Positions 3,229 through 21,185 of a stretch of DNA of 21,331 nucleotides are shown piece after piece. Made by a program: the position numbers and the translations under genes. The DNA is taken from IMG/VR virus record IMGVR_UViG_3300017771_000141, positions 1 to 21,331 of that record, one strand, 5' to 3'. Positions within the stretch are counted from its first letter, which is position 1. The number at the start of each line of letters is the position of its first letter. The notes beneath the pieces are model-generated. The model saw only the letters and a program-made list of their open reading frames with translations. It was not told the DNA's origin and searched no databases. This DNA comes from a virus.

Positions 3229-3899
3229 ACTATTCTGAACTTTTAACAAATGTAAGAAACTATACCGAAGTTACTAGTGATGTTCTAAGTGATGCAGTTA
3301 TAAATGTTTTTATAACTAATATTGAAAATAAGGTAGCTAGACAAATAGATACTGACGATCAAAGAAGATATGCAACTACAACTTTTGAAGCTAATAATGC
3401 TTTTTTAGATGTATCAGGTCCTGAGGGTGGATTTAGATTTGCTAGAGGATTGCAGTTAGTTGAAACAGATGGAACTAGAACTTGGTTACAACAAAGAGAC
3501 GCTACTTTTATGGACGAGTATTCTCCTGAAAGATCTACTACTGATGTTAATTTTACAGGTAAACCAAAGTATTGGGGAAATTGGGATGGAACAACTTTAG
3601 TTGTAGCTCCTACCCCTAACGTGGCTTACACAGTGGAGATGTGGTACGATGAGACTCCTGAGCGATTGACTAGCACAAATACCACCACTTTTTTATCTAA
3701 CAATGCACCTGAAGTTTTGTTATACGGAACTTTATCGGAAGCTTATTCATACTTGAAAAATGTTCAAGATATGCAATTATACGAAGGTAAGTACCAAGTA
3801 GCTCTGCAAGATTTTGCACAGGAGCAAATGGGTCGTAAACGTAGGGATGAGTATCAAAATGGTGTGTTACGAATTCCAATTAAATCGCTAACACCATAA
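3225..3899 (+). CDS. Phage adaptor protein, SU10-type
   Basis: The start NYSELLTNVRNYTEVTSDVL, followed by a helical FITNIENKVARQID and a beta-rich core (PKYWGNWDGTTLVVAPTPNV, YTVEMWYDETPERL), is typical of phage adaptor proteins of the SU10 type. The C-terminal helices carry APEVLLYGTLSEAYSYLK and a basic GRKRRDEYQNG end. These proteins connect the portal to the tail in short-tailed phages. The start overlaps the zinc-ribbon stop as ATGA, so the connector, zinc ribbon and adaptor are one translational unit. No membrane or signal segment is visible, and the length fits the family. Confidence 0.7.
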   Translation: MNYSELLTNVRNYTEVTSDVLSDAVINVFITNIENKVARQIDTDDQRRYATTTFEANNAFLDVSGPEGGFRFARGLQLVETDGTRTWLQQRDATFMDEYSPERSTTDVNFTGKPKYWGNWDGTTLVVAPTPNVAYTVEMWYDETPERLTSTNTTTFLSNNAPEVLLYGTLSEAYSYLKNVQDMQLYEGKYQVALQDFAQEQMGRKRRDEYQNGVLRIPIKSLTP

Positions 3900-8223: not shown

Positions 8224-8570
8224 TGGCTAAGTGGTGTAAGATTAATGATATTAAAGTAGTAGAAGTTTCTGACACAGAGGTTGTAGGTTGGCATGAAACA
8301 ACAAATGACAGTGTTGTACAGGGTTGGTGGTTTCAAAATGGTGATGTTGCTAACTCATATACTTATGGCATCGATGATTTAAGAAAAGCTAGAGACTTAG
8401 AATTATCAGCTTGTGATTGGACACAATTAGCTGACTCACCTTTAACAGATTCAAAGAAAGCAGAATGGGCAACATATAGACAGGCATTGAGAGATTTTCC
8501 TGCAAGTAACACAACATTTACTGTAACCTTAGATGGTTCAGATACAGCATGGCCTACTAAACCTTCCTAG
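8223..8570 (+). CDS. Phage tail assembly chaperone-like protein
   Basis: The C-terminal half, RKARDLELSACDWTQLADSP followed by LT-SKKAEWATYRQALRDFP (about residues 55-96), is the signature of the Phage_tail_APC (tail assembly chaperone) family. That family is commonly encoded just after fibre genes and assists fibre folding or attachment. The N-terminal half is a small beta-rich domain (KWCKINDIKVVEVSDTEVVG). Length (115 residues) and position after the fibre agree. The start overlaps the fibre stop as TAATG, and its own TAG overlaps the GTG start of the first oxygenase as TAGTG. Translation could therefore flow from fibre to chaperone to oxygenase. Confidence 0.8.
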   Translation: MAKWCKINDIKVVEVSDTEVVGWHETTNDSVVQGWWFQNGDVANSYTYGIDDLRKARDLELSACDWTQLADSPLTDSKKAEWATYRQALRDFPASNTTFTVTLDGSDTAWPTKPS

Positions 8571-9178
8571 TGTTTTTAGAAAATAATTATTGGTTCTACG
8601 ACAGAGCACTTAATCCAAAAGTGTGCCAACAAATAATTCAGTATGGTAATTCTTTAAAAGAAAATGTCGGTGTTACATCTGATACAAGTGAAGGCACTGA
8701 GGAAAATAAACAGAAATTAGCAAAAATTAGAGATTCTAGAATAGCTTGGATTCCACAACTAAGATGGCTTAATATTTGGTTTTGGAATTGTGCTATGGAT
8801 GCAAACAAATTTGCAGATTGGAATTTCAATATTGATACATCCGAACAGTATCAATTTACAAAATATAAAGAAGGTCATTTTTATGGTTGGCATCAAGATT
8901 GTGGACCTGATACCATTGGAGATGGTTTACAAAGAAAATTATCTTTAGTTTGCACGTTAACTGACTCTTCTGAGTATGAAGGTGGACAATTAGAAATATG
9001 TAATCCACAAATGTCTCCCATTAAAAAGTTGGAAGATAAAACAGATAGTGAAGAAAAATGGTTTAATCAAGGAACTATAATTGTTTTTCCTAGTCATATG
9101 TGGCATCAAGTAAAAAAAGTCACTCAGGGGACTAGATATTCTTTAGTAACATGGTTTAGAGGAAAGGATTTTGAATGA
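8570..9178 (+). CDS. 2OG-Fe(II) oxygenase, PKHD/PiuC-type (oxygenase 1)
   Basis: A dioxygenase that should couple decarboxylation of 2-oxoglutarate to hydroxylation of a substrate. The double-stranded beta-helix iron site is complete: H108-x-D110 in FYGWHQDCG, distal H179 in FPSHMWHQV, and R189 in TRYSLVTWFRG for 2-oxoglutarate. GTIIVFPSHMWHQVKKVTQG is a classical PKHD-type block, as in PiuC/YbiX proteins. At 202 residues it is a near-full-length single domain. Start GTG 8570 overlaps the chaperone stop, and the stop overlaps the next ATG as ATGA. The substrate is unknown. Adjacency to fibre and chaperone makes the fibre one candidate, by inference only. Confidence 0.9.
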   Translation: MFLENNYWFYDRALNPKVCQQIIQYGNSLKENVGVTSDTSEGTEENKQKLAKIRDSRIAWIPQLRWLNIWFWNCAMDANKFADWNFNIDTSEQYQFTKYKEGHFYGWHQDCGPDTIGDGLQRKLSLVCTLTDSSEYEGGQLEICNPQMSPIKKLEDKTDSEEKWFNQGTIIVFPSHMWHQVKKVTQGTRYSLVTWFRGKDFE

Positions 9179-9828
9179 GCAAATTTGAACAAGATAATTA
9201 CATTATAATAAACAAAGCTATTAGTGAGGAGATAGCTAGTTTTGTATGTGAATATTTTAATATGAAAATGAAAGTCACAGCAAAAATGTTTGAGAGTGGA
9301 ATGATATCACCTTATGAGGAAAACTACGGAGTGTTTGATGATGGCCAAGTTCCAGGTGCTTTTTCTGCTTATGCAGATATAGCCATGGAAGTTTTACTCA
9401 ACGCCTTACATCCTTTAATGGAAAAAGAAACAGGTATTAAATTAACACCTAATTATTCTTATGCTCGTGTGTATTTAAAAGGTCAAAAATTACCAAGGCA
9501 TAAAGACAGATTTGCATGTGAAATATCTACCACTCTTAATTTAGGGGGAGATTCATGGCCAATTTATTTAGAGCCTGATGAAACAAAGGGCACAGATGAT
9601 GGTACTAAATATATTTCTGAAGATACTAAAGGTATTAAGGTAGATTTAGGACCTGGTGATATGTTGATATATAAAGGCAACTTATTAGAGCATTGGAGAG
9701 AGCCTTTAGAAGGAGACAGGTGCTCACAAGTATTTCTTCATTATAATAGAGCTGATCAAAAAGAACCACCATTTGATGGAAGAGATTTTTTAGGTTTACC
9801 AAGTTGTTTCGTATTAGGCAAAAAATAA
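9175..9828 (+). CDS. 2OG-Fe(II) oxygenase (oxygenase 2)
   Basis: The iron ligands are H109-x-D111 in LPRHKDRFACE and distal H173 in LLEHWREPL. A basic residue for 2-oxoglutarate is probably R175 or R182 in the WREPLEGDRCSQVFLHYN block. LNLGGDSWPIYLEPDE and LGPGDMLIYKGNLLEHWRE are characteristic of a group of small oxygenases common in cyanophages and marine bacteria. No extra domain is present in the 217 residues. GGAAAGG about 7 bases upstream and the ATGA overlap with oxygenase 1 fix the start. The sequence is clearly divergent from oxygenase 1, so the pair is not a recent duplication. The substrate is unknown. Confidence 0.88.
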   Translation: MSKFEQDNYIIINKAISEEIASFVCEYFNMKMKVTAKMFESGMISPYEENYGVFDDGQVPGAFSAYADIAMEVLLNALHPLMEKETGIKLTPNYSYARVYLKGQKLPRHKDRFACEISTTLNLGGDSWPIYLEPDETKGTDDGTKYISEDTKGIKVDLGPGDMLIYKGNLLEHWREPLEGDRCSQVFLHYNRADQKEPPFDGRDFLGLPSCFVLGKK

Positions 9829-10511
9829 AATTTTATAGTAAGCATTTTTCTCTTTTAGAAAAACCTATACCTTCCAAGAAGAAAGTGCCTCTGTGGTATA
9901 AGAAAATGCAAAATTTTCCAATGGGTAAAAAAGAAAGTGGATCTGTTAAAAGATGTGTTCCTTTTTTGGATGCTCTGACATCAGGATATTATATTGTAAA
10001 CAACTTTGAAGTATTAATAACATGGCGTGAACCTGGTGTTTTAGATATAAGATACAATCAAAATTTAGAAAAAGGAGAGGCTTATGAACTTGACTCAGGT
10101 ATTAAAACTCATTTGGCTTGGCAAGTGAATGATGATTTTTATAATGACAATGAAATAAAACATCCTTTAAAATTTGATAATCCGTGGAGAATAGAAACTC
10201 CTAAGGGATATAGTTGTATGTTTTTGAACCCTCCAAATAATCCATCACCTTTTAGATTAGCAGAAGGTGTTGTTGATACAGATCAATACAAAATGAATAT
10301 TAATTTTCCCTTCCTTTTAAAAGGATTTGAAAAAGAAGTATCAATACCTGTTGGCTTACCTATAGTATGGGTAGTGCCTTTTAAAAGAGAGTCATGGCAA
10401 ATGGAGACACATGATCATGATTTAGAATCAAAGGATTATCATACAAATTTTTTTAAAGAGTTTGCTGATAATTATAGAAATAAAATATGGAGTAAAAAAG
10501 AATATGATTAA
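9804..10511 (+). CDS. DUF6065-like protein (235 aa)
   Basis: The order of motifs is PIPSKKKVPLWYKKM, CVPFLDALTSGYYI (about residues 51-64), FDNPWRIETPKGYSCMFLNP (about 123-142), GVVDTDQYKMNINFPF and IPVGLPIVWVVPFKRESW. This recalls DUF6065-type proteins, whose core reads PWI-TPPGW, then a VETDW block and a GEPF-P block. The family call is from memory. No metal triad is obvious, and the fold could be a jelly roll. The frame's first start is TTG 9804, overlapping oxygenase 2 by 25 bases with no ribosome site, so the true start is uncertain. It sits between an oxygenase and a glycosyltransferase, which hints at a role in the same modification pathway. Confidence 0.65.
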   Translation: MFRIRQKIKFYSKHFSLLEKPIPSKKKVPLWYKKMQNFPMGKKESGSVKRCVPFLDALTSGYYIVNNFEVLITWREPGVLDIRYNQNLEKGEAYELDSGIKTHLAWQVNDDFYNDNEIKHPLKFDNPWRIETPKGYSCMFLNPPNNPSPFRLAEGVVDTDQYKMNINFPFLLKGFEKEVSIPVGLPIVWVVPFKRESWQMETHDHDLESKDYHTNFFKEFADNYRNKIWSKKEYD

Positions 10512-11325
10512 ACCTGAAGAACTAAAAGAAAAAAACTTTAAAATATTTTTAGGAATGCCTATGTATGGTGGAATGTTATCTGAAGCTACATTACACGGTT
10601 TATTGGAACTACAACAATGGTCGATGTCAAAAGAAAAAGATGTTCAAATGAGAATACAGACCATGGGTAATGAAAGCTTAATAACTAGAGCAAGAAATAC
10701 ACTTGTGTCAATGATGATGGATGCACAAGATTATGTTGCAACTCATTTACTTTTTATAGATGCAGATATTGGATTTAATTGGAGAAATGTTGAGAGACTG
10801 ATTTGTGCTGATAAAGACATTGCTTGTGGAGTATATCCTAGAAAACATTTACATTTGGAAAAGGCTAGTAAATGGATTCAAGAAGATCCTAATATAAGTC
10901 CTGATGACCTAGAGGCTAGAATACTAGGTTATAATATTAACTTTGATGATCCTAAAAATATAAGAGGAGAGAATGGATTTTTCAAAGTACAAGAAGCCGC
11001 TACAGGAATGATGTTAGTAAAAAGAGAAGTCATAAGAAAAATGATGAAAGCTTATCCTGAGAGAAAGTATGAGTCTGATCAAATTGTAAACGGTGGCTCT
11101 TATAAGTCAGATAATTGTTATGATTTGTTTGCAGTTGGTCCTTACGAAACTTTAGGTCAAAAAAGATACTTATCAGAGGACTATTACTTTTCGAGATTAT
11201 GGCAAGAACTTGGTGGAGAAATTTGGGCAGATTTAGCAAGTCCATTAACTCATTTTGGAAATAGAGCATTTAAAGGGCATGTTGGTACTTTAGTAGCAAA
11301 AGCAGATGATCAAAATAATAAATAA
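10504..11325 (+). CDS. GT-A-type glycosyltransferase-like protein
   Basis: ATG 10504, with GGAG at 10489-10492, is preferred to an upstream start at 10462 that would lie deep in the previous gene. Residues 58-66 (SLITRARNT) and HLLFIDADIGF, with D86-x-D88, form the nucleotide-sugar and metal-binding DxD element of a GT-A fold. AATGMMLVKREVI (about 165-177) and YLSEDYYFSRLWQELGGEIW, with E225-D226, then ASPLTHFG with H250, follow as in acceptor-side and metal-binding parts of phage GT-A enzymes. The product is 273 residues, soluble, with no membrane anchor. It should transfer a sugar from a nucleotide sugar. The acceptor could be a hydroxyl made by a neighbouring oxygenase, a fibre residue or a base; none is proven. 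Confidence 0.75.
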   Translation: MIKPEELKEKNFKIFLGMPMYGGMLSEATLHGLLELQQWSMSKEKDVQMRIQTMGNESLITRARNTLVSMMMDAQDYVATHLLFIDADIGFNWRNVERLICADKDIACGVYPRKHLHLEKASKWIQEDPNISPDDLEARILGYNINFDDPKNIRGENGFFKVQEAATGMMLVKREVIRKMMKAYPERKYESDQIVNGGSYKSDNCYDLFAVGPYETLGQKRYLSEDYYFSRLWQELGGEIWADLASPLTHFGNRAFKGHVGTLVAKADDQNNK

Positions 11326-11815
11326 TTTTTTTAGTGTATACAGTAGAGATTACTATTTATTTGCAAAACAACTTACTTTTCATGAGTCATCGGATTATAA
11401 AAATCTCATGGGATTTACTAGTAAGTATGTAGATTTTCCAGGGAGAAGAACTTTACAGCTAAGCAAAGAGTCACCTTTTTTTTATCTAAATATTGTAAAC
11501 AATGTTTATGATAAGTTTGGCATAAAGTTAGATGATCAAGCAGGAGTATATTGTCATGTTAGATTTCAAGATGATAGAGATGATTGGATACACACTGATA
11601 GAGGAAAAACAATATTAGTATTTTTATCTGAAACTAATTTAGAGTCAGGAACGTGTTTTTTTGATAATAATGAGAATCTTACTGATAATATAAGTTTTAT
11701 ACACAATAGAGCTGTAATGTTTGATGGTAACATAAAACACATGTCAAAAAAAAATTATGGATCTTCGGTAGAAGATGGAAGAATGACAATTAATATATTT
11801 ATTGAAAATGCTTAA
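11306..11815 (+). CDS. 2OG-Fe(II) oxygenase (oxygenase 3)
   Basis: Ligands H96-x-D98 (DWIHTDRGKT), distal H145 (GNIKHMSKKN) and R159 (EDGRMTINIF) complete the 2-oxoglutarate/iron site in a 169-residue single domain. ILVFLSETNLESGTCFF is a typical strand-loop-strand of the superfamily, and the NRAVMFDGNIKH block precedes the distal histidine as expected. The ATG overlaps the glycosyltransferase stop by 20 bases, so the two are probably translated together. The arrangement resembles oxygenases I know from cyanophages and DUF6445-type proteins. The substrate is unknown. Confidence 0.88.
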   Translation: MIKIINNFFSVYSRDYYLFAKQLTFHESSDYKNLMGFTSKYVDFPGRRTLQLSKESPFFYLNIVNNVYDKFGIKLDDQAGVYCHVRFQDDRDDWIHTDRGKTILVFLSETNLESGTCFFDNNENLTDNISFIHNRAVMFDGNIKHMSKKNYGSSVEDGRMTINIFIENA

Positions 11816-12347
11816 TTCTATCAAAGAAGGATCTATATTATTAAAGCCACAATTTTTACCGTTAGAGGTTTACAACTCCACACTTAATTTATTCAATAAT
11901 AATAAATTTTATGCAACATACCAACCTACAGAAATATTCTATGGCAATAGATTACAGGCATATCCTTGTTATCAATATGTACTTAAAGAAAATGAAAATA
12001 TAATATTTGAAAAATTGTTATCTGATTATTTAGACACCCCTGTTGATGTCTTAACTATTGCAAGAAAGATTGTAACATCAGAAATACAACAATCAAAATG
12101 CAACACAAAATATGGGTACATACATCAGGATTCTCATTGTGATTTAGCAGCAGTATTACCTTTTGATCAAACAATAGATGGAGGAACAGCTTTCTTTGAA
12201 AATATTTGGGATAAGTATCCTGACATAACCGTGGGAGCGTATCCCAATAGACTTGTTATATACAACTCACAAAGACCTCATGCACCATCACATGATTTCA
12301 CATTTGTAGAAAGAAAGGTTTTAGCCTTTATGATAAAGGTAAAATGA
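11808..12347 (+). CDS. 2OG-Fe(II) oxygenase, DUF6445-like (oxygenase 4)
   Basis: I chose ATG 11808 over an in-frame TTG at 11802; the start overlaps the previous stop by eight bases. Ligands are H106-x-D108 (YGYIHQDSHCDLAAVLPF), distal H158 (SQRPHAPSH) and R169 in VERKVLAFM. HQDSHCDLAAVL, then GGTAFFEN and YPNRLVIYNSQRPH, match DUF6445 proteins as I remember them; in proteobacteria those occur near tryptophan-halogenase-like and cupin genes. A halogenase and cupin-like genes are present about 6-9 kb downstream, so the association may be meaningful. The stop overlaps the next ATG as ATGA. The product is 179 residues with an unknown substrate. Confidence 0.85.
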   Translation: MLNSIKEGSILLKPQFLPLEVYNSTLNLFNNNKFYATYQPTEIFYGNRLQAYPCYQYVLKENENIIFEKLLSDYLDTPVDVLTIARKIVTSEIQQSKCNTKYGYIHQDSHCDLAAVLPFDQTIDGGTAFFENIWDKYPDITVGAYPNRLVIYNSQRPHAPSHDFTFVERKVLAFMIKVK

Positions 12348-12895
12348 AACTAGAAGTAATACAGTTTTCAATTCATAGTTTATATTCTGCCTATATTATA
12401 AGAGATTATTTATCTCAAGAAGAGTTGTACAAACTTGATAAGGTCCTTAGAGATAAAACAAAAATAGATGAGATGAATAAGTCTACCAATGTAAAAGGTA
12501 ATATGACCTCTTATTCTGCTTTACAGGACGTACAAGAGTGTGCAGATCTGATTAGCAAAGCAATCTTTACTATTGATTCAATAGTTAAATTAAGAAGTTC
12601 TCATGGAAGAGATAGCTTCATATATCGTGTGACTGATGCTTGGGGAATGAGACACAATACAAATGATTATTCTATAAATCATGCTCATTATCCGTCTCAT
12701 TGGTCTGCTGCTTTCTATACCACTGTGCCTGATCCTAAACCTATCATGAAGCTTATTGAATTTAATGATAAAGTGGAGCTAGACAATAATATGTTAGTTA
12801 TATTTCCTGCTATGGTAAATCACGAGGTATCTATTAATAAATCTGATAAAGAAAGAATATCAATGGCTTTCAACATTGATGTGGAAAAACAATAA
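12344..12895 (+). CDS. 2OG-Fe(II) oxygenase-like, HxH variant (oxygenase 5)
   Basis: This resembles the PF13759/TIGR02466 branch of 2OG-Fe(II) oxygenases. RVTDAWGMR (about 95-103) is the strand that reads SW in relatives. NHAHYPSHWSAAFYTTVPDP carries H113-x-H115 followed by Y-P, and the C-terminal block LVIFPAMVNHEVSINKSDKE plus RISMAFN has distal H160 and R171. The usual acidic ligand (HxD) is replaced by His, as in other members of this branch here. At 183 residues it is one domain. It is coupled to oxygenase 4 by ATGA and ends the first oxygenase run; a 20-base gap separates it from the hub gene. Activity and substrate are unproven. Confidence 0.78.
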   Translation: MKLEVIQFSIHSLYSAYIIRDYLSQEELYKLDKVLRDKTKIDEMNKSTNVKGNMTSYSALQDVQECADLISKAIFTIDSIVKLRSSHGRDSFIYRVTDAWGMRHNTNDYSINHAHYPSHWSAAFYTTVPDPKPIMKLIEFNDKVELDNNMLVIFPAMVNHEVSINKSDKERISMAFNIDVEKQ

Positions 12896-12915
12896 AACTG
12901 TAGTATATTAGACAA

Positions 12916-14742
12916 ATGCCCCTAGTAAATTTTAGACCAGCCGCAGGTATTAATAAAGAAGTCACCGATTATACAGGTGCAGGTAAGTGGACTGATGGCG
13001 ATATGGTTAGGTTTTTTCAAGGATTACCACAGAAAATAAAAGGTTGGGAAAAATTTATATCTACAACTCTTGTTGGTGTGGCAAGAGATCAACACTCTTG
13101 GGTAGCATTAGATGGCACAAGGTATAATGCCATAGGAACAGACAGAAAATTATATGTAATAGAAGAGGGTAGTGCATTTGATATTACTCCTTTAAGAAGA
13201 ACACAGGCTCGTACAAATCCTTTTACTACCAATGCCACAACTTCAGTTGTTGTTACTGATACAGGTCATGGTGCTTCAAAAGGTGATTTTGTTACCTTTG
13301 ACAGTTTTAGTGCAATAGATGGATTGGACATGAATAAAGAATTTGAAGTAACTTCTATTGTAAACACTGCGGCATATGTTGTAACTCATACAAGCACTGC
13401 TTCAGGATCCACTGCTTCAGGTGGTGGCACAGGAAATATGAAGTATCAAATAAACGTTGGTCCTTCTTTATCAACTTCAGCTTTCGGTTGGGGTACAGAT
13501 GGTTGGGGATCAGGTTCATGGGGTACACCCTCCACCACTTCAAACGTAACATTGGAGGCTAGACAGTGGTCACTAGATAATTTTGGTGAAGATTTAATAG
13601 CTACTGTTTTAAATGGTGGTGCTTTTAAATGGGATACTTCTTTAGGTGTATCAACAAGATGCACTGCAATCACTAATGCTCCAACAGCTTCTAGATTAAG
13701 TTTGATATCTACTCCTGATAGACATCTAATGTTTATGGGCACTCAGGCCACTATCGGAGCAGGAAATGCTCAAGATGATTTATTGATTAGATTTTCCGAT
13801 CAAGAAGATATTAACACGTATCAACCAACAGCAGAAAATACTGCTGGTTCTTTAAGAATAGCAGACGGATCACGAATAGTGGCCGCAGAAAGATCAAGAG
13901 GTCAGATACTCGTATGGACCGATACTTCTTTGCACTCTCTACAATTCATAGGTCCACCATTTACTTTTGGTTTAAGACAGTTAGGTCAAAACTGTGGTAT
14001 AGTCGGAAGTCATGCTGGTGTCGATATTAATGGTGTAAGCTATTGGATGTCACAAGACTCATTCTTCTTATTTGATGGTTCCGTTAAAAAATTACCGTGC
14101 ACCGTGGAACAATTTGTATTTGATAATTTAAATCAAACAGGAGCAGAAAATGCTTTTGCTGGACATAATGGTGAGTTTAATGAAATTATGTGGTTTTATC
14201 CTAGAACAGGATCCGATCAAATAAACGCTATTGTAGCCTATAATTATTTAGAGGGAACTTGGTGGACAGGAACATTGGCTAGAACAACTTGGACAGATAG
14301 AGAAGTTTATGATAGCCCTATAGCTACTGAATTTTTAGCTTCAACAACAGCTAACAATGAAGTTATTCTTGGACTAACAGCAGGAGCTACTCAATCATTT
14401 ATACATGAAACAGGTAATGACGCTGACGGTTCTGCAATCACTGCCTTTGTAAAATCAGGTGCAGTAGAAATAGGAACAGGAGATGAATTTTCTTTTGTAT
14501 CAAAATTAATTCCTGACATACAAAATCAAGAGGGAACTTTAAACGCAAAGTTAGAATTTAAAAACTATCCAAATAATAGCACAAGTGTTATAAAGACTGC
14601 TACCTTTACTGACAGCACAGAGTTTGTTAGTTTAAGAGGAAGAGGCAGAGAATTTACTGTTAATCTTGTGTCCAACACTACAGGCACAGCTTGGAGAGCA
14701 GGCACTCAAAGATTTGACATACAACCTGATGGTAGAAGATAA
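12916..14742 (+). CDS. P22 gp10-like tail hub / DNA stabilisation protein (608 aa)
   Basis: The N-terminus (NFRPAAGINKEVTDYTGAGK, then WTDGDMVRFFQGLPQKIKGW) is the hallmark of large phage virion proteins I associate with P22 gp10-type packaged-DNA stabilisation or tail hub proteins. The body is a string of beta-propeller-like blades (HSWVALDGTRYNAIGTDRKL, RGQILVWTDTSLHSLQFIGP, VDINGVSYWMSQDSFFLFDG). Residues 192, 197 and 202 form a W-x4-W-x4-W motif shared with the fibre-like protein at 4376. No enzyme motif is evident. There is no clear ribosome site before ATG 12916. The stop forms TAATG with the next gene. It returns the window to virion genes after five oxygenases. Confidence 0.7.
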   Translation: MPLVNFRPAAGINKEVTDYTGAGKWTDGDMVRFFQGLPQKIKGWEKFISTTLVGVARDQHSWVALDGTRYNAIGTDRKLYVIEEGSAFDITPLRRTQARTNPFTTNATTSVVVTDTGHGASKGDFVTFDSFSAIDGLDMNKEFEVTSIVNTAAYVVTHTSTASGSTASGGGTGNMKYQINVGPSLSTSAFGWGTDGWGSGSWGTPSTTSNVTLEARQWSLDNFGEDLIATVLNGGAFKWDTSLGVSTRCTAITNAPTASRLSLISTPDRHLMFMGTQATIGAGNAQDDLLIRFSDQEDINTYQPTAENTAGSLRIADGSRIVAAERSRGQILVWTDTSLHSLQFIGPPFTFGLRQLGQNCGIVGSHAGVDINGVSYWMSQDSFFLFDGSVKKLPCTVEQFVFDNLNQTGAENAFAGHNGEFNEIMWFYPRTGSDQINAIVAYNYLEGTWWTGTLARTTWTDREVYDSPIATEFLASTTANNEVILGLTAGATQSFIHETGNDADGSAITAFVKSGAVEIGTGDEFSFVSKLIPDIQNQEGTLNAKLEFKNYPNNSTSVIKTATFTDSTEFVSLRGRGREFTVNLVSNTTGTAWRAGTQRFDIQPDGRR

Positions 14743-14912
14743 TGGCTAAATTAATTATACAAAGATTTCCTGACCCAGGAGAGGAATATGAAAGACAACA
14801 ATTTTCAACTCTGATAAGACAATTGGAATTTATGATACAACAACTAAATAGTTCTTACACTAACGATACTCAAGAAGAGGCAACAAGAAGGGCATGGTTT
14901 TTAAGTGGCTGA
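14742..14912 (+). CDS. Small helical virion-region protein (56 aa)
   Basis: A 56-residue protein beginning MAKLIIQRFPDPGEEYERQQ, with a helical middle rich in Gln (LIRQLEFMIQQLNSSY) and ending EEATRRAWFLSG. It starts in TAATG overlap with the hub gene and its last 8 bases overlap the GTG start of the next gene, so it is clearly part of the structural unit. I recall the LNSSYTxDTxEEAxRRAWFL ending from small proteins next to tail genes in marine phages. The amphipathic helix may form a coiled coil. The function is unknown; a small tail or joint component is likely by position. Confidence 0.7.
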   Translation: MAKLIIQRFPDPGEEYERQQFSTLIRQLEFMIQQLNSSYTNDTQEEATRRAWFLSG

Positions 14913-15261
14913 CGTATTTAAAAGATTTATAACAAATGTAACTACAACAGATTTGACCACTGTGTTTACAGTCCCTGTGGCCAACGTTGCAGCATCACCA
15001 CCAACACCTGTTTCAACTTTTATTGTTAAAACAATTAATACTCATAATTATGATGGTAGTAATGCAGTAACCGTAAACTTTGATCACAACAATGGTAGTT
15101 CTGATTTACAAGTATTTCAGGTTGATGTGTCTGCCTCAGATACAAACACTATTAGCACAAGCATGGTATATCAGGAAGGTGACAGCATGAAGGTTCAAGC
15201 TAATGCTGCTTCTAGAGCCATGGTAGAAGTTTCCGTATTGGAGATTAAACAACAGCTATAA
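14905..15261 (+). CDS. Small beta-sandwich virion-type protein (118 aa)
   Basis: The frame opens with GTG 14905 (MADVFKRFITNVTTTDLTTV) within the end of the previous gene. The product is rich in Val, Thr, Asn and Ser with alternating hydrophobic strands (FIVKTINTHNYDGSNAVTVN, LQVFQVDVSASDTNTISTSM, MVEVSVLEIKQ). This predicts an all-beta sandwich such as a tail or decoration protein. There is no cysteine, signal peptide or catalytic motif. Its stop joins oxygenase 6 as TAATG. I recognise the general type from phage virion loci but no named family. Confidence 0.65.
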   Translation: MADVFKRFITNVTTTDLTTVFTVPVANVAASPPTPVSTFIVKTINTHNYDGSNAVTVNFDHNNGSSDLQVFQVDVSASDTNTISTSMVYQEGDSMKVQANAASRAMVEVSVLEIKQQL

Positions 15262-15755
15262 TGAGATTAATACAGGATGGCATGTTGGATAAATCAGCCT
15301 GTGATACATTAATTAATTTATATCAAGACAATAGGCCACTGACAAAATTGTGGCATAGCACAAATACATTAAATTTAGCACAAGTAGAAGATCAACACGA
15401 TCAGTTAGCTAAAAAAATAATATTTGGTATGACAACTTTTTTAAGCACAAAAGGAGCAGTAGCTTTTCCTGAACTTTGTCAAGTAGTTCATAGACCTGAA
15501 GGCACTTCACATGGTTTACACATGGATGATGCAAGAACTTCAACGGTAATGACATCCATAACATATCTTAACGATGATTATGAGGGTGGAGAAACATTTT
15601 TTGAAGATGGTCTTACAGTGGCACCTAAGCTAGGTAGGTCTTTGTTTTTTGATGGAAGAGCTTTCAGACATGGTGTAAACGAGATTAAAGGTAATAGATT
15701 TACATTGGCAATATGGTACGCATCTGACATAAACGACTTTTATGGAATTAGTTAA
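15261..15755 (+). CDS. 2OG-Fe(II) oxygenase, prolyl-4-hydroxylase-like (oxygenase 6)
   Basis: This has the clearest P4H-type signature in the window. H87-x-D89 lies in GLHMDDARTS, followed by ITYLNDDYEGGETFF (about 100-114), then VAPKLGRSLFFDGRAFRHGV with distal H137, and R146 in NRFTLAIWY. All iron and 2-oxoglutarate contacts are present. P4H-like phage proteins are usually supposed to hydroxylate peptides, but that is family inference; no proline-rich target is visible nearby except perhaps the Gly/Pro-containing fibre tip. The protein is 164 residues. It starts in TAATG overlap with the virion gene, and its end overlaps the next gene by 14 bases. Confidence 0.9.
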   Translation: MRLIQDGMLDKSACDTLINLYQDNRPLTKLWHSTNTLNLAQVEDQHDQLAKKIIFGMTTFLSTKGAVAFPELCQVVHRPEGTSHGLHMDDARTSTVMTSITYLNDDYEGGETFFEDGLTVAPKLGRSLFFDGRAFRHGVNEIKGNRFTLAIWYASDINDFYGIS

Positions 15756-16407
15756 ACCTTCACTTCCTAAAGCTATAGAAAAAAGAATTGTAGAGAAACA
15801 AGCTCTTAGTTATCAGTTTGTTACTTATCTACAGGATCTTATGAAGGCTATTATTAACAATGAGGACATTGTTAGATATCAGTTCTCTAAACTAGCCAAA
15901 TATAGAGTTTTAAAAATAAACGAAAAAGATGTTCTAGAAAAAGTAGCAGACAGATACAGGTGGCCTAGAGAGTATGAGGAAAAACAACCCTCAATGGAAG
16001 TTATAACCTTAAGTGGTAAGGTAATAAAAAGTGATTTTAAAGAAGATAACTTTGCTGATTCTTTTGAAAATACTTGTAGATACCTTGCAGGAGAGGAGTT
16101 GGTCCTACATCGCTGTCAGACTTTAACAAAAAATTTAACATTTGCCTGTAATCTTTTTTCATCAATACTAGGTAGAGATTTAAACTTTAGTGGATATCTT
16201 AGATTGGGCAGTAAACCAATAAAACCAACAAGTTTTTCTTACAAATACAACATTATAATAAAAAATGCTTATGGCCTTTTAAAATGTAGTTTAAATGGTA
16301 AGATAAAAATATTAAAAAAAGAAGGTGCTATCTTTGTTCGCAAAGGTACGAAAGTTAGAATAGAAGAAATTAAAGAACCAACGTTTTATATAATTTATCA
16401 TTTATGA
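15742..16407 (+). CDS. Degenerate JmjC/cupin-like protein lacking metal ligands
   Basis: No family is obvious at first sight. Residues about 110-218 line up by eye with the intact JmjC-like protein at 20577: a YLAGEELVLHRCQTLTKN block against YAINNVCFIQDCSRVNKR, then YNIIIKNAYGLLKCSLNGK against HNLIIQVEGKTNFTVKDE, then LKKEGAIFVRKGTKVRI against LEPGDCVFVPLGVYHQA. At the positions of the HxD pair this protein reads PTS, and at the distal His it reads Val, so the iron site seems lost. The N-terminal 80 residues are helical. A non-catalytic partner or scaffold role is possible. ATG 15742 overlaps oxygenase 6, and the stop overlaps the next ATG as ATGA. Confidence 0.55.
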   Translation: MELVKPSLPKAIEKRIVEKQALSYQFVTYLQDLMKAIINNEDIVRYQFSKLAKYRVLKINEKDVLEKVADRYRWPREYEEKQPSMEVITLSGKVIKSDFKEDNFADSFENTCRYLAGEELVLHRCQTLTKNLTFACNLFSSILGRDLNFSGYLRLGSKPIKPTSFSYKYNIIIKNAYGLLKCSLNGKIKILKKEGAIFVRKGTKVRIEEIKEPTFYIIYHL

Positions 16408-16922
16408 ATATTTTTAAGGCACAGATAAAAAAAGACATTATAGATCTTTCTCTAGACACAATACAAAATATGAAAAAGTCTATGAACGAAGTAAGTTGGA
16501 ATTGTGATATACGAACATCATACAATCTTACTGACAACATTTTAAATGTTAAAGAATTATGGCCATTAAAATTTTCTATTCTTGAAAGCATACACGAATA
16601 CATGCTTAATAATAATAAGTTCTTTGAAGGATTTATAAAAAAGTCTTGGGTTAATATATATGAAAAAGGTTTTTATCAAGAGTTTCACAATCATAAAGAC
16701 GAAATTGCAAAATATATTTGTGGTGTGGTTTATTTTACACCCATGTCAAGTTCAATAGAGTTTGGTATTGAAGAAAGAATAGAACATAAACCTGAAGTTG
16801 GTGATATTTTAATCTTTAATGATGATCAATTACACAGAGTTTTACCACACAAAGACAGTGATTTAAGAATAAGTTTAGCTTTTAATTATCAAAAGATAGA
16901 CACATGGAATGGACTTAAGTGA
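16404..16922 (+). CDS. 2OG-Fe(II) oxygenase-like, HxH variant (oxygenase 7)
   Basis: This belongs to the PF13759-like branch: SWVNIYEKGFYQEFHNHKDE (about 81-100) holds H95-x-H97, CGVVYFTP follows, and EVGDILIFNDDQLHRVLPHK carries distal H144, with R155 in LRISLAFN. The second ligand position is His rather than Asp; D99 and E100 just after could compensate but are out of register. The 10-residue spacing between H97 and the following Gly is three longer than in the relatives at 16919 and 20003. The gene is 172 residues, coupled by ATGA upstream and by GTGA downstream. The substrate is unknown. Confidence 0.8.
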   Translation: MNIFKAQIKKDIIDLSLDTIQNMKKSMNEVSWNCDIRTSYNLTDNILNVKELWPLKFSILESIHEYMLNNNKFFEGFIKKSWVNIYEKGFYQEFHNHKDEIAKYICGVVYFTPMSSSIEFGIEERIEHKPEVGDILIFNDDQLHRVLPHKDSDLRISLAFNYQKIDTWNGLK

Positions 16923-17533
16923 TAATAGAATCACATACATTACCGTTATTTCCAACAGTGGTTCAAAAGATAGTTGTTGACTATGATTTTAAAGAATTAA
17001 AAGAAACAGTTCAAAGCTTAGAATATAGAGACATAGAAACAGACTTACCTAATCCTCCTCAAGTATCACATGATTTTTATTTATTAGATAAGCATCAAAA
17101 AGAAAAGAGTTTGTTTAAGGACATATTTGATAGACACTATAAAGAAGATGTTTTTCAATATCACAGCACTGATTTTAAGATAACAACCTCTTGGTCCACC
17201 AAGACAGGTCAAGGAGCATACGGAGGTCATTATCATAGACATAAGAATTGTATGTTCTGTGGTGTTTTTTATTTTGATAATTTAAAGACTCCAATAATAT
17301 TTAACGGACAAAATATAATAGATGAGGATATATTGGTCAATGAACCTACCTCTTGGAATGTTTATAATTCAAGAGAAATAAAAATTTTTCCCACAGCTAA
17401 TACTTTGTATTTATTTCCTAGTTATTTACAGCACAGGATAGGAAAGAACGAAGAGGACCAAGTAAGATATTCTTTAGCATTTAATCTTTTTCCTGTAGGA
17501 GTTTTTGGTAAACTAGATTCGGAGTTAAAATGA
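16919..17533 (+). CDS. 2OG-Fe(II) oxygenase-like, HxH variant, TIGR02466-type (oxygenase 8)
   Basis: The N-terminal LPLFPTVVQKIVVDY is the usual start of TIGR02466 proteins (LFPTPV-like). The core has TSWSTKTGQGAYGGHYHRHK with H104, H106 and H108, then CGVFYFDN, and NTLYLFPSYLQHRIGKNEED with distal H172, R183 and the closing RYSLAFNLFPVGVFGK. Metal binding by histidines is likely, but no HxD exists. Its ending is shared with the 20003 protein (SLAFNxFxxGVxGKxD), so the two are paralogues. Start GTG 16919 is inside the previous stop (GTGA). The stop overlaps the halogenase ATG as ATGA, so it may be expressed in step with the halogenase. Confidence 0.82.
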   Translation: MIIESHTLPLFPTVVQKIVVDYDFKELKETVQSLEYRDIETDLPNPPQVSHDFYLLDKHQKEKSLFKDIFDRHYKEDVFQYHSTDFKITTSWSTKTGQGAYGGHYHRHKNCMFCGVFYFDNLKTPIIFNGQNIIDEDILVNEPTSWNVYNSREIKIFPTANTLYLFPSYLQHRIGKNEEDQVRYSLAFNLFPVGVFGKLDSELK

Positions 17534-19020
17534 AAATTTGTATACTAGGTGGTGGCACAGCAGGTTTTATGACTGCAGCAACATTGGTCAAATTATTTCC
17601 ACAACATGAGATAAAACTAATAGAGTCCCCTCAGGAAAAAACTGTCGGTGTTGGAGAGAGCACAATATTAGGTTTTAAGGCATGGCTTAATCTTTTAGAT
17701 ATTAAAGACGAAGACTTTATGAAGGATTGTAACGCAATTTACAAACTTAGTATAAAATTTACTGATTTTTATAAAAAAGGTGAGAGCTTTCATTATCCAT
17801 TTGGAGAACTTAAATATCCATTGGACGATTGGTGGCTATGTAAGATAGCTAATCCTGATTTACCCAACGATACTTATGCCTCTTATAACTATGAAGCTAT
17901 GACTCAAATAGAACAAGGCTTGATGTATGAACACTCTGATTTTAAAAATGAGACTGCTTATCATTTTGATGCAAAACTTTTTGCAGATTGGCTTAAAAAC
18001 AAATACTGCATACCTAAAGGATTGAAATATGTCTCTGAACATATCGAAGATATAAAACAAGATGATGATGGAATAAAATCACTAAATGGAAAACACGAGG
18101 CTGATCTATATATAGACTGTACAGGTTTTAAATCTATGTTACTTGGAGAAACTCTTAAGGAACCATTTGAATCCTATGAAGATTTACTACCAAATAATTC
18201 AGCTTGGGCAACTAGAATACCTTACAAAGACAAGGATAAAGAATTATTACCCTACACAAATTGCACTGCTTATAACAATGGATGGATATGGAATATACCT
18301 TTGTGGAATAGAATTGGTACAGGTTATGTTTATTCAGATAAGTTTACTAGTGATGAAGATGCACTGTCAGACTTTCACAATTATCTAGGCATAAAAACAG
18401 ATTTAGAATTTAACAAAATAAAAATGAGAGTAGGTATACACAAAAGACTTTTTGTAAAAAATGTATGTGCTGTTGGTTTGTCTGCTGGTTTTATTGAACC
18501 CTTGGAGAGCAATGGTTTATACACTGTTCATCAATTTTTAATTAAACTTGTAAGACAAATGCAAAGAGAAAAAATAAGTCAATGGGACAAAGACAATTAC
18601 ACATTCGGTTGTAAAAAAATATTTAAACCTTTTGCTGATTTTGTAGCTCTACATTACGCTTTATCTCATAGAACTGACACACCTTATTGGAAAGCTAATT
18701 TCAACAAAACTTGGGAGGAAAGATTATACACCCTAGAACCTACATCGGTCTATACGCTTCTTAATCACGCTTTTTTAAGAGACGAAAACTTCTCTTTTGA
18801 CACACAGGGTGGTGCACACTGTATAGCAACAGGTATGAATTGGAAACCAAATGATGAAAATATGGCAAAGCTACAGAACAATATACAGTTGAGTGAGATA
18901 GTAGACAAAGCAAAAGACGTATTAGGTGAATTACAAAACAGAAAAGAAAAATGGAAAGAGGAATGTGAAGAAGAGGGCGTGTCTTTTCATGACTTTCACA
19001 AACACAATGTTTATTACTAA
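17530..19020 (+). CDS. Flavin-dependent tryptophan-type halogenase
   Basis: The family uses FADH2, O2 and halide to make hypohalous acid, which is relayed through a tunnel to a lysine. The FAD box GGGTAGFMTAA (residues 7-17), VGVGESTILGF, catalytic-type K72 in the AIYKLSIKF segment, the halogenase signature WIWNIP at 252-257 followed by IGTGYVYS, and FIEPLES with E326-S327 are all present. C-terminal FVALHYALSHRTDTPYW is also typical. At 496 residues it is a little shorter than PrnA (538). GGAG just before ATG 17530, together with the ATGA junction, fixes the start. A flavin reductase is not encoded in the window and would have to come from elsewhere. Substrate and halide are unknown; a cyanophage relative, VirX1, is reported to iodinate. 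Confidence 0.93.
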   Translation: MKICILGGGTAGFMTAATLVKLFPQHEIKLIESPQEKTVGVGESTILGFKAWLNLLDIKDEDFMKDCNAIYKLSIKFTDFYKKGESFHYPFGELKYPLDDWWLCKIANPDLPNDTYASYNYEAMTQIEQGLMYEHSDFKNETAYHFDAKLFADWLKNKYCIPKGLKYVSEHIEDIKQDDDGIKSLNGKHEADLYIDCTGFKSMLLGETLKEPFESYEDLLPNNSAWATRIPYKDKDKELLPYTNCTAYNNGWIWNIPLWNRIGTGYVYSDKFTSDEDALSDFHNYLGIKTDLEFNKIKMRVGIHKRLFVKNVCAVGLSAGFIEPLESNGLYTVHQFLIKLVRQMQREKISQWDKDNYTFGCKKIFKPFADFVALHYALSHRTDTPYWKANFNKTWEERLYTLEPTSVYTLLNHAFLRDENFSFDTQGGAHCIATGMNWKPNDENMAKLQNNIQLSEIVDKAKDVLGELQNRKEKWKEECEEEGVSFHDFHKHNVYY

Positions 19021-19540
19021 AGATAATTTTTTATCAAAAGACAGCATTGATTTTATTGAAAATCAAATATTGAGCAGTTCTTTTCCATATTATTTTAATG
19101 CACATACAATACACGATCCACCTGATAACAACGCATATATGGGCCATGATATACTTAGAAGACCTGAGGAGAGAAATGAGGGGGAGACATTTAACTCCAA
19201 TTATGGAGAACAATTTTTAAAAATATTAAAAGAGTTTACAGACTTAATTAACTATAATCTTACAGATATATACAGGATATCAGTAAATATCACCTTTGCA
19301 GGAGCTACAGGGAATTGTCCTATACACATAGATCATCCTTATTCTCATCATCAGTTATTAGTATATTTAAATGACTGTGATCCTGTATCTAAGACTGTTG
19401 TTTTATCACAAGATAAATCAGAAGTTGAACATATAATATCACCAAAAAAATATATGGGAGCTTGTTTTAGTTCTGCACCACACTATATGATTTTTCCTAA
19501 AAAAGGAGCTAGGGCAGTAATTGTCTATACATTTAAATGA
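19007..19540 (+). CDS. 2OG-Fe(II) oxygenase (oxygenase 9)
   Basis: The open frame reaches back to 18926 within the halogenase, but ATG 19007 (MFITKDNFLSKDSIDFIENQ) begins where homologous folds begin; ATG 18989 is an alternative. Neither has a strong ribosome site. Ligands are H107-x-D109 in CPIHIDHPYSHHQLLVYLND, distal H159 in SSAPHYMIFPKKGAR and R169, so the site is complete. The halogenase overlap is 14 bases and the next gene joins as ATGA, placing this oxygenase directly in the halogenase operon. The protein is 177 residues with an unknown substrate. Related small oxygenases occur in cyanophages. Confidence 0.86.
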   Translation: MFITKDNFLSKDSIDFIENQILSSSFPYYFNAHTIHDPPDNNAYMGHDILRRPEERNEGETFNSNYGEQFLKILKEFTDLINYNLTDIYRISVNITFAGATGNCPIHIDHPYSHHQLLVYLNDCDPVSKTVVLSQDKSEVEHIISPKKYMGACFSSAPHYMIFPKKGARAVIVYTFK

Positions 19541-20010
19541 TTCAATTTGTAAATAATGTTTGGTATGGCGATGACACTTACAACTCAAATGAATTAAAAA
19601 AAATTTCACAAGAAATAAGAGAGGGGAATTGGCAATACAAAGGTAGCTCAGGAACAATTGGAGATGATAATAAGTTTTGGTATCAACCATTAACAGAGCA
19701 ACACACAAATTTTTTTAGAACCATAACAAATAATAAAGTTATAAGAGCTTATGCAAACGGTCAGACAATGACACAGCACAGTGGTTTTCACGCAGATGAT
19801 GGTGACATGACTTATTTGATATACGCAGATGAGTGGAGTTTAGCTGATGGTGGAGGTACTGAGTTTCTTCTTAATGACAATACCACTTGTAGCGTTTATC
19901 CTAAATTTAATAGAATAGTAAAGTTTAAAGCAGACATATCTCACAGAGCTTTACCTAATATAAAACAACATTCTTTTAGAATGACTATAGCGTTGAAGAC
20001 ACATGAGTGA
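19537..20010 (+). CDS. 2OG-Fe(II) oxygenase, P4H-like (oxygenase 10)
   Basis: H85-x-D87 lies in GFHADDGDMTYLIYADEW, followed by LADGGGTEFLL. The block YPKFNRIVKFKADISHRALP holds distal H136, and R148 sits in FRMTIALK. The order and spacing follow PF13640-type prolyl hydroxylase-like enzymes. At 157 residues it is the shortest oxygenase here, yet all contacts are present. It begins in ATGA overlap with oxygenase 9 and its last eight bases overlap the start of the next gene. The substrate is unknown. Confidence 0.88.
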   Translation: MIQFVNNVWYGDDTYNSNELKKISQEIREGNWQYKGSSGTIGDDNKFWYQPLTEQHTNFFRTITNNKVIRAYANGQTMTQHSGFHADDGDMTYLIYADEWSLADGGGTEFLLNDNTTCSVYPKFNRIVKFKADISHRALPNIKQHSFRMTIALKTHE

Positions 20011-20605
20011 AGTTATAAGTCTATTTCCTATAGCTATTAGCGTACATAATATTGACATTAATTTTTCTGATGAAGATAAAAAATTTATAAATCTATGTCT
20101 AAATGATCAATATGAAAACACAGGTAACACTACTTCATACGATACTTATGTTTTGGAAAAACTACCAAGCTTAAAAGAAAAATTAATGAGTAAAGTTAAT
20201 TTTCATTTTTATGAAACTTTGAAGCATGTCAAAGAAAGTGAAATATATATTACACAGTCTTGGTTAAATCTTACAAAGAAAGATCAATTTCATCACACAC
20301 ATAAGCATCCCAATTCTATTTTAGCAGGTGTATTTTATCTGCAAACAGTAGACGATGATTGTATTTCTTTTGATAACACATTAAGAGTAGATCAAGTTAG
20401 GCCATCAATTGAGTCTTTTAATTCTTGGAACTCTAGTTTGTATAATTTACCTGTTCATAAAAACATGTTAGTAATATTTCCATCTAGTTTAATGCACAAT
20501 GTGCCAACTGTAAAATCAGATCAAGTTAGAATTAGCCTAGCATTTAATACATTTGTGAAAGGAGTTTTAGGTAAAGATGATCAATTATCAAGAGTCAATT
20601 TGTAA
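20003..20605 (+). CDS. 2OG-Fe(II) oxygenase-like, HxH variant, TIGR02466-type (oxygenase 11)
   Basis: SLFPIAISVHNIDI at the start and TQSWLNLTKKDQFHHTHKHP (about 84-103), with H98, H100 and H102 before Pro, are textbook TIGR02466/PF13759 features. SILAGVFYLQT follows, then MLVIFPSSLMHNVPTVKSDQ with distal H165, and R176 in RISLAFNTFVKGVLGKDD. It is a paralogue of oxygenase 8 with the same C-terminal ending. Expected metal ligands are histidines, without an HxD. The ATG overlaps the previous stop by eight bases and the 3' end overlaps the JmjC-like gene by 29 bases. Confidence 0.83.
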   Translation: MSEVISLFPIAISVHNIDINFSDEDKKFINLCLNDQYENTGNTTSYDTYVLEKLPSLKEKLMSKVNFHFYETLKHVKESEIYITQSWLNLTKKDQFHHTHKHPNSILAGVFYLQTVDDDCISFDNTLRVDQVRPSIESFNSWNSSLYNLPVHKNMLVIFPSSLMHNVPTVKSDQVRISLAFNTFVKGVLGKDDQLSRVNL

Positions 20606-21185
20606 ACAAGTAGCTGAATTTAAACCTTTTGCTTATAAGAATAAAATAAATAATATTTTTTCTTGGGAGGAGTTAGCCTATATATTAAATACTCCACTAA
20701 GCACAGAAAAATTTCATGCAACAGGCATTGATTGTAAACCAACTGATGTGCCTTATGAGTGGCAAACTACTCCAAACATTATATCTCCCTCCAATATTTA
20801 CAATTATGCAATCAACAACGTGTGTTTCATACAAGATTGTAGTAGAGTAAATAAAAGAATTAACAAAATTGCTCATGATTTAGAATGGGCCACAGGTTAT
20901 TCATGTGATGCACATATCTTTTTTTCTGTTTTAGATAACGAAAAGGATACTGATGGCTTTGGTATGCATAAGGATGTATGTCACAATTTAATTATTCAAG
21001 TTGAGGGCAAAACTAATTTTACCGTCAAGGATGAGTTTGAAATAGTATTAGAACCAGGAGATTGTGTTTTTGTACCACTTGGCGTGTATCATCAAGCTAA
21101 ATCTATAGAAAAAAGACTCTCAGTTAGTTTTCCAATGAACCCTGAACATAAGACAAAACAAGACAGATTTTGGATTGATTTCTAG
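20577..21185 (+). CDS. JmjC/cupin-like 2OG-Fe(II) oxygenase (oxygenase 12)
   Basis: This is a JmjC-like or cupin_4-type (ROXA-related) protein. H131-x-D133 lies in GFGMHKDVCHNLIIQVEGKT, then IVLEPGDCVFVPLGVYHQAK carries distal H172; LSVSFPMNPE closes the barrel. Bacterial ROX enzymes of this type hydroxylate ribosomal proteins, and JmjC-like relatives also occur next to halogenases, so a protein target is a reasonable but unproven inference. N-terminal helices include IFSWEELAYILNTP. The product is 202 residues, shorter than ROXA, which carries an extra C-terminal domain. ATG 20577 overlaps the previous gene by 29 bases. This is the last oxygenase before the right-hand edge. Confidence 0.82.
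   Translation: MINYQESICKQVAEFKPFAYKNKINNIFSWEELAYILNTPLSTEKFHATGIDCKPTDVPYEWQTTPNIISPSNIYNYAINNVCFIQDCSRVNKRINKIAHDLEWATGYSCDAHIFFSVLDNEKDTDGFGMHKDVCHNLIIQVEGKTNFTVKDEFEIVLEPGDCVFVPLGVYHQAKSIEKRLSVSFPMNPEHKTKQDRFWIDF

Follow-up and report, generated by a model that had tools for sequence, protein, structure and literature searches.

The virus record IMGVR_UViG_3300017771_000141 (IMG/VR), which we analysed over its full length of 21,331 bp (hereafter, the window), carries beside its tail genes a 12.6-kb block of 12 oxygenase genes and one catalytically dead relative. The block is real but not unique, as oxygenase clusters have already been published for this phage group. New here are a reinterpretation of the phage 'ferrochelatase' family phrog_2954, which by its sequence motif, its predicted fold and the absence of PF00762 is a 2-oxoglutarate (2OG)-type oxygenase, the finding that a member of this family (gene B) is fused to its neighbour (gene A) in some relatives, the lasso-peptide-like surroundings of B's relatives in bacteria, and the co-segregation of the A and B families with the tip type of the tail fibre. 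We give a probability of about 40% to the reading that the block is a variable late operon of protein-modifying oxygenases, in which A-B would act on the phage's own tail fibre during assembly and accessory enzymes would add variation, with both chemistry and target inferred. The oxygenases and the dead relative are as follows (numbers with L denote the contigs and loci compared).

8570–9178, + strand: gene A, prolyl 4-hydroxylase (P4H)/PKHD-type 2OG oxygenase (H108), partner of B and fused to it in relatives; PF13640 5e-18, phrog_61; PiuC/P4H in the Protein Data Bank (PDB), 1e-11 to 1e-7
9175–9828, + strand: gene B, predicted 2OG-type oxygenase (H109), called 'ferrochelatase' elsewhere (phrog_2954); invariant HxDR...HWR, AlphaFold 2 (AF2) and Foldseek; without PF00762
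11306–11815, + strand: HxD...H oxygenase-like protein (H96), phrog_274 group
11808–12347, + strand: HxD...H oxygenase-like protein (H106), phrog_1644/274, rare
12344–12895, + strand: HxH...H oxygenase-like protein; PF13759 2.5e-13, above cut-off
15261–15755, + strand: 2OG oxygenase (H87); PF13640 1.3e-9, above cut-off; phrog_2297 1e-35
15742–16407, + strand: dead cupin/JmjC-like protein, metal ligands lost; ratio of nonsynonymous to synonymous substitution rates (dN/dS) 0.14
16404–16922, + strand: HxH...H oxygenase-like protein; PF13759 1.1e-9
16919–17533, + strand: HxH...H oxygenase-like protein; PF13759 8e-11; missing from the close relatives L007 and L142/L220
19007–19540, + strand: HxD...H oxygenase-like protein (H107); phrog_274 3e-26
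19537–20010, + strand: 2OG oxygenase (H85); PF13640 1e-6, above cut-off
20003–20605, + strand: HxH...H oxygenase-like protein; PF13759 3e-19
20577–21185, + strand: JmjC_2/Cupin_8-type HxD...H oxygenase, 1.4e-8 and 3.8e-8, above cut-offs; H131, D133, H172 and R180 invariant

A preliminary description of the window, made from its letters alone, had counted eight HxD...H and four HxH...H metal sites. All twelve were confirmed as complete, with correct coordinates and start codons and every gene on the + strand. HxH instead of HxD is usual for the PF13759 family. Pfam profiles placed 8 of the 12 proteins above curated cut-offs: 8570, 15261 and 19537 in PF13640, the four HxH proteins (12344, 16404, 16919, and 20003) in PF13759, and 20577 in both JmjC_2 and Cupin_8. 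The remaining four (9175, 11306, 11808, and 19007) were assigned by PHROG profiles and an HxD motif that is invariant in their alignments. Three of these, 11306, 11808, and 19007, scored below the Pfam cut-offs, matched phrog_274/phrog_1644, and were linked to one another by profile–profile comparison (97% and 92%). Two proteins with Pfam confirmation, 15261 and 19537, also fall within phrog_274; because the comparison of 11306 with 8570 gave no link (3%), the phrog_274 group is tied to PF13640 via 15261 and 19537 only. The double-stranded beta-helix fold is thus documented in the twelve by Pfam for eight, by AF2 and Foldseek for 9175, and by profile links only for 11306, 11808, and 19007. The family DUF6445 (PF20043), which had been suggested earlier, was rejected, as its cut-off of 24 bits was not reached (11306, 15.2 bits; 11808, 13.5 bits). 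A candidate 2OG-binding basic residue was invariant in A (R189) and in 20577 (R180), and was not at the usual place in 9175.

The earlier view of 15742 as a dead JmjC-like protein holds: its relatives, which match Cupin_2/JmjC_2 weakly, retain a cupin/JmjC-like HxHD...H motif that is gone in the window copy, and its profile matched that of the JmjC-like 20577 (72%). Given its low dN/dS, 15742 is probably a working pseudoenzyme. Separately, phrog_274, phrog_2297, and phrog_1644, families that match oxygenases here, are labelled 'DNA endonuclease V', 'DNA endonuclease' and 'minor coat protein' in PHROG, and some GenBank records carry such labels (e.g., 023Pt_psg01 URG13117).

The reinterpretation of phrog_2954 started from 9175, which matched this family at 1e-45 and had no Pfam match. 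Its HxDR...HWR motif was invariant in 32 aligned sequences. The AlphaFold model of B was confident (predicted local distance difference test, pLDDT, 86) and had an oxygenase fold. Its best PDB match was 4iw3, the Pseudomonas putida P4H solved with EF-Tu (E 2e-9), and the best 50 of 628 Foldseek matches at E ≤ 0.001 were almost all 2OG oxygenases, including prolyl-4-hydroxylases. P. putida P4H and vCPH of PBCV-1 (5c5t) represent the predicted fold of B and the family of A, B being without sequence-level membership. The 'ferrochelatase'-named HTVC023P gp67, HTVC033P gp58, S-SM1 YP_004322951, P-SSM7 YP_004324990, and those of HTVC008M and Sf-CH11 belong to the phrog_2954 family and carry HxDR...H(W/Y)R; five of these were scanned against Pfam without a match at E ≤ 1. 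Phage 'ferrochelatases' with HxD...H are 190–214 residues long, against a ferrochelatase standard of PF00762 and about 320 residues. PF00762 was above cut-off in 0/12 phage records, 10 of which had phrog_2954, and was positive in 10/14 control genomes. B was therefore rejected as a ferrochelatase, since it is short, lacks PF00762, and combines an HxD...H motif with the predicted fold of a 2OG-type oxygenase. The phrog_2954 family occurs in 156 phage records, many of them named ferrochelatase in RefSeq. The label is at least as old as the cluster T4-GC 615, described as 'Hyp. with ferrochetalase domain' (PMC3037559), and 'ferrochelatase' figures in statements on iron/haem partner genes (PMC9599517, PMC11561400). 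The mis-annotated label also sits in published analyses of auxiliary metabolic genes (AMGs).

A, for its part, matched PKHD/P4H structures in the PDB (PiuC, P4H). B-A fusions were found in eight contigs, six of phages and two of bacteria, which suggests that A and B probably act together; one natural fusion lies at 3586–4698 of L068. In bacteria, 7 of 17 B loci lie close to a lasso-cyclase-like gene of the asparagine-synthase type, a PqqD-like gene, or both, and PF13640 proteins are neighbours in some; the cyclases score under the NF033535 (NCBIfam) cut-off. With a chance rate of 3% per locus, which we assumed, the binomial p value is about 3e-7. That a 2OG enzyme, CanE, hydroxylates a lasso peptide is established (PMC9266682), and the lasso-peptide-like surroundings of B's bacterial relatives point to peptide substrates. 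Together with the P4H/PKHD likeness of A, they argue moderately for A-B as a paired peptidyl oxygenase. The window itself was rejected as a lasso-peptide biosynthetic cluster: Pfam scans recognised neither a cyclase nor a PqqD-like/protease gene in it, and such genes are present only near the bacterial relatives of B. In L052, L053, and L084, oxygenases of the types R/B/A or Q/A/G lie as a unit on the strand opposite to the tail genes.

The block genes are co-directional with the tail genes and overlap by 1 to 29 nt throughout, with breaks only around V and Y. The block is not made up of oxygenases alone, as a halogenase, a DUF6065-like gene, a possible glycosyltransferase, and two genes of the virion region also lie in it. 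For comparison, we used 32 related loci, each running from the tail fibre up to the structural gene that comes next; near-duplicates are included, and the window counts as one type with L004 and L005. Gene A was present in 28/32 of these loci, B in 30/32, and D, V, and Y in 32/32, whereas the accessory families vary. The frame and passenger genes of the window are as follows.

5364–6851, + strand: NolO-like carbamoyltransferase; PF16861 2e-50, phrog_1601 3e-131
6898–8223, + strand: tail fibre, N-terminus conserved, tip rich in Gly; proposed substrate
8223–8570, + strand: tail (fibre) assembly chaperone; PF16778 5e-19
9804–10511, + strand: gene C, DUF6065-like; PF19541 1e-4, under cut-off; phrog_7084 2e-43
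10504–11325, + strand: gene D, highly conserved core protein with a DxD motif, possible GT-A glycosyltransferase; phrog_1574; phrog_34859 (glycosyltransferase) 5e-5
12916–14742, + strand: gene V, virion stabilisation/structural core protein; phrog_3287 4e-81
14905–15261, + strand: gene Y, small core protein encoded in the structural region, in all 32 loci
17530–19020, + strand: VirX1-like flavin-dependent halogenase; PF04820 3e-102; PDB 6qgm (VirX1) 1.8e-99; K at 76, WxWxIP at 252

The tail fibres of the relatives fell into two tip classes, Gly-rich or collar-type, with none between (Gly fraction ≤0.23 or ≥0.35). The A and B families co-segregate with tip type: the nearest neighbour was of the same tip class in 32/33 loci for A and B, compared with 26/33 for V and 24/33 for D. 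After regression on V, the association was retained for A and B (permutation p 0.0002 and 0.0006) and was not significant for D (p 0.13). The fibre's own N-terminus showed no mean difference between the tip classes. The assembly chaperone occurred only with Gly-rich fibres (p 1.7e-6). Gene C, tied to the Gly-rich class, was found in 12/18 loci of one class and 3/24 of the other, and the 16404-like family in 0/18 and 12/24, respectively.

The preliminary description had named an outlier count of oxygenases with conserved synteny as a sign of a system. The outlier count stood in part: the window, with 12, is at the top of the 32 related loci (3–12 oxygenases per locus, median 5). The range is continuous, however, and other contigs are equally dense (L179, 12 in 9.4 kb; L276, 11 in 7.6 kb; L200, 10 in 8.2 kb; L310, 11 in a 7.8-kb contig). 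As the counts were made with profiles seeded with window proteins, those for other phages are lower bounds. On this basis Pelagibacter phage HTVC008M has at least 20 oxygenases, Sf-CH11 16, and S-RIM44 13, scattered over the genome with densities per 12.6 kb that peak at 7, 4, and 5, respectively. These three phages resemble the window in overlapping oxygenase families and a halogenase beside structural genes, and differ from it in having 4–7 oxygenases per 12.6 kb and 13–20 per genome at several sites. Cyanophage S-SCSM1 has 24 2OG-Fe(II) oxygenase open reading frames (ORFs) per genome (PMC9602691), a large divergent PF13640/PF13759 set like that of the window; unlike in the window, the ORF numbers listed in the portion of that report available to us are spread over the genome, and this portion describes no single 12.6-kb block of 12. 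HTVC023P-type phages carry eight non-orthologous oxygenases, 'frequently nearby' (Wittmers 2022, PMC9599517). In HTVC023P and HTVC033P, homologues of A-B are encoded, or B adjoins 2OG genes. The phage group is related to the window by gene content, and its clusters likewise have co-located non-orthologous oxygenases and adjacent A and B ('2OG plus ferrochelatase'), the partner called ferrochelatase there being, by our reinterpretation, an oxygenase itself. The window differs in having twelve rather than few, plus the JmjC-like and dead cupin-like proteins, the carbamoyltransferase, and the VirX1-like halogenase, whose closest solved structure is the marine viral halogenase VirX1 and which is here embedded in an oxygenase operon. 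From the continuous range, the dense contigs, and the published clusters, we conclude that the window represents the high end of a phenomenon already known. L310 is a contig of a Flavobacteriaceae metagenome-assembled genome (MAG) with a GC content of 0.27; its 11 oxygenase-family ORFs are packed more densely than in the window, and it is probably an unrecognised phage contig. Contigs L303, L308, L309, L312, L316, L328, and L334 of the Maricaulis MAG IN14 bear such phage tail or oxygenase genes and are likely phage contigs binned in.

Assembly of the set by repeated acquisition, as first proposed, was borne out, since every window oxygenase is closer to a relative in another phage (34–60% identity) than to any window neighbour (30% at most). 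The supposed pair of recent paralogues was not: no pair exceeds 30% over its length, and the best, 16919/20003, with 30% identity, is too divergent to be recent. Copies of the frame genes V, Y, and D in other phages are 82–90% identical to those of the window, compared with 34–60% for the oxygenases. Turnover proceeds gene by gene: 16919 occurs only in the window type, 9804 is missing in L220, and families Q and R are swapped in L007. This divergence pattern and the one-gene-at-a-time changes indicate repeated exchange within the marine phage pool, and the absence of 16919 from L007 and L142/L220 indicates that it was recently gained or lost. All oxygenases with an orthologue in L142/L220, which 16919 lacks, had dN/dS of 0.05–0.22 and are thus maintained genes. 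In near-complete or complete genomes of podovirus relatives, almost all oxygenases (3–7 per genome) lie at the tail-fibre site. With this purifying selection, the idea of a dedicated locus was upheld; as first proposed, it may serve several steps on one target or a set of targets.

In the reading that we prefer, the block, whose genes turn over one by one around a near-constant frame of fibre, A-B, D, V, and Y, would be a site for variable cargo within the late operon of tail genes. The oxygenase panel would hydroxylate protein side chains during virion assembly, with the A-B pair acting on the tail fibre, and the accessory oxygenases, halogenase, and carbamoyltransferase would chemically diversify the exposed adhesin as an alternative to sequence change. 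The confinement of the locus to the tail-fibre region in related podoviruses supports this reading, and from the match between the sequence types of A and B and the type of fibre tip we infer, weakly, that the fibre is the substrate of A-B. Several points weigh against it. B is without the usual Arg/Lys about ten residues past the distal His, which makes its use of 2OG only putative. A and B adjoin the fibre tip, so that a single exchange block (tip, chaperone, A, B) could mimic co-segregation, and the families downstream of V had no clear link to fibre class. A Gly-rich tip did not predict oxygenase number (rho 0.13, p 0.49) and was dropped as a predictor. Cyanomyovirus members are scattered, some among replication genes (the P-SSM7 'ferrochelatase' has dam methylase and gp62 as neighbours). 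D is no more than a putative glycosyltransferase, and the literature searched contained no modified phage fibre.

The oxygenases could instead act late in infection on the surface of the host or on its proteins, such as the receptor, translation factors, or the ribosome, for instance to prevent superinfection or to retune the cell. B finds its best fold match in a prolyl hydroxylase of EF-Tu, ribosomal oxygenases are among the members of JmjC_2, to which 20577 belongs, and the carbamoyltransferase and glycosyltransferase-like protein suggest surface chemistry. However, host-directed genes are usually in early regions, whereas these lie inside a late structural operon and A and B track the fibre tip; we consider a host target unlikely. 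Slightly less likely again is a recombination-prone site between core tail genes that gathers similar short genes, most with separate roles. Presence and absence do vary per gene between conserved flanking core genes, but the cargo is strongly biased to oxygenases, and constraint extends to every orthologue-bearing one and even to the dead copy.

A metabolic role, through small-metabolite substrates or a draw-down of 2-oxoglutarate or iron (modulation of nitrogen stress, the 'AMG' view), has been proposed for cyanophages (PMC3037559) and pelagiphages (PMC11561400, PMC12753301), and the halogenase VirX1 is credited with diverse small substrates (Gkotsi 2019, as cited in PMC10452541). Draw-down would call for one abundant enzyme rather than 12 divergent ones at low dN/dS, and the iron link is based partly on a 'ferrochelatase' that is not one, which makes this role improbable. 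Most improbable is DNA hypermodification, that is, TET/JBP-like base oxidation followed by decoration. The carbamoyltransferase and possible glycosyltransferase nearby would fit it, as would a weak Tet_JBP match of 15261 (E 0.044); this match is under the cut-off (PF12851, 13.4 bits vs 34.9), ORF and Pfam scans recognised no methyltransferase or nucleotide gene in the window, and the block sits in the tail module.

Among the other genes, 17530 has the features of a flavin-dependent halogenase: PF04820, the catalytic Lys, and WxWxIP. V was 84–100% identical in the best 80 viral contigs. The AlphaFold model of D was poor (pLDDT 51) and gave no fold match, and a sequence search of D against the PDB returned a single chance match, so its assignment as a glycosyltransferase remains a motif-level guess. 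C was rejected as a hidden double-stranded beta-helix protein, as it had no profile relation to A or 15742 and no PDB match. Y is 48–53% identical to its counterparts in L142/L220 and L006, whose neighbouring genes are mostly 84–95% identical, and 87% identical to that of the more distant L007, which indicates an allele swap by recombination. The NolO-like carbamoyltransferase family also occurs inside the variable locus of L024 and L075, as another mobile passenger. Upstream of the tail genes, 918–1462 and 2006–2209 encode small basic proteins rich in Lys and Gly; in one of them, GGMAKKRGG-like units are repeated.

The record is a whole contig, a linear fragment with a GC content of 0.34 and its main genes all on the + strand. 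It is not an assembly chimera, because its gene order is repeated at 100% identity in the independent assemblies L004 and L005, and nearly the same gene set occurs in the diverged L007 and L142/L220 (11 oxygenases each). No RNA families, tRNAs, or replication genes were found in the window, and a near-identity DNA search against named phages gave no match. The contig is that of a marine podovirus related by gene content to HTVC023P-type pelagiphages. A 38.6-kb sister contig has 14 of 42 ORFs in common with HTVC023P (mean identity 38%), and near-complete relatives share 25–29. Among the cultured relatives are two phages of Pelagibacter; further ones have Roseobacter as host or are assigned to Gammaproteobacteria. 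Contigs with B, fibre, V, and Y genes were present in two Pelagibacteraceae assemblies (L305, L313), which makes SAR11 a likely host for the phage group as a whole.

What these results offer is a new reading of the 'ferrochelatase' family, the A-B unit, and a hypothesis on the substrate that can be tested. With 'ferrochelatase' read as an oxygenase, the basis for the published iron/haem interpretations falls away. A-B, sometimes fused, is a concrete two-domain enzyme open to assay, and the lasso-like bacterial context and co-segregation with fibre type make the question of its substrate directly testable. More broadly, though we consider this unlikely, abundant ocean phages may carry a dedicated, fast-reshuffled operon that tailors their own tail-fibre adhesin by A-B hydroxylation, with oxidation, halogenation, and carbamoylation by accessory enzymes. 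The chemistry of receptor binding would then be diversified by enzymes and not by sequence alone.

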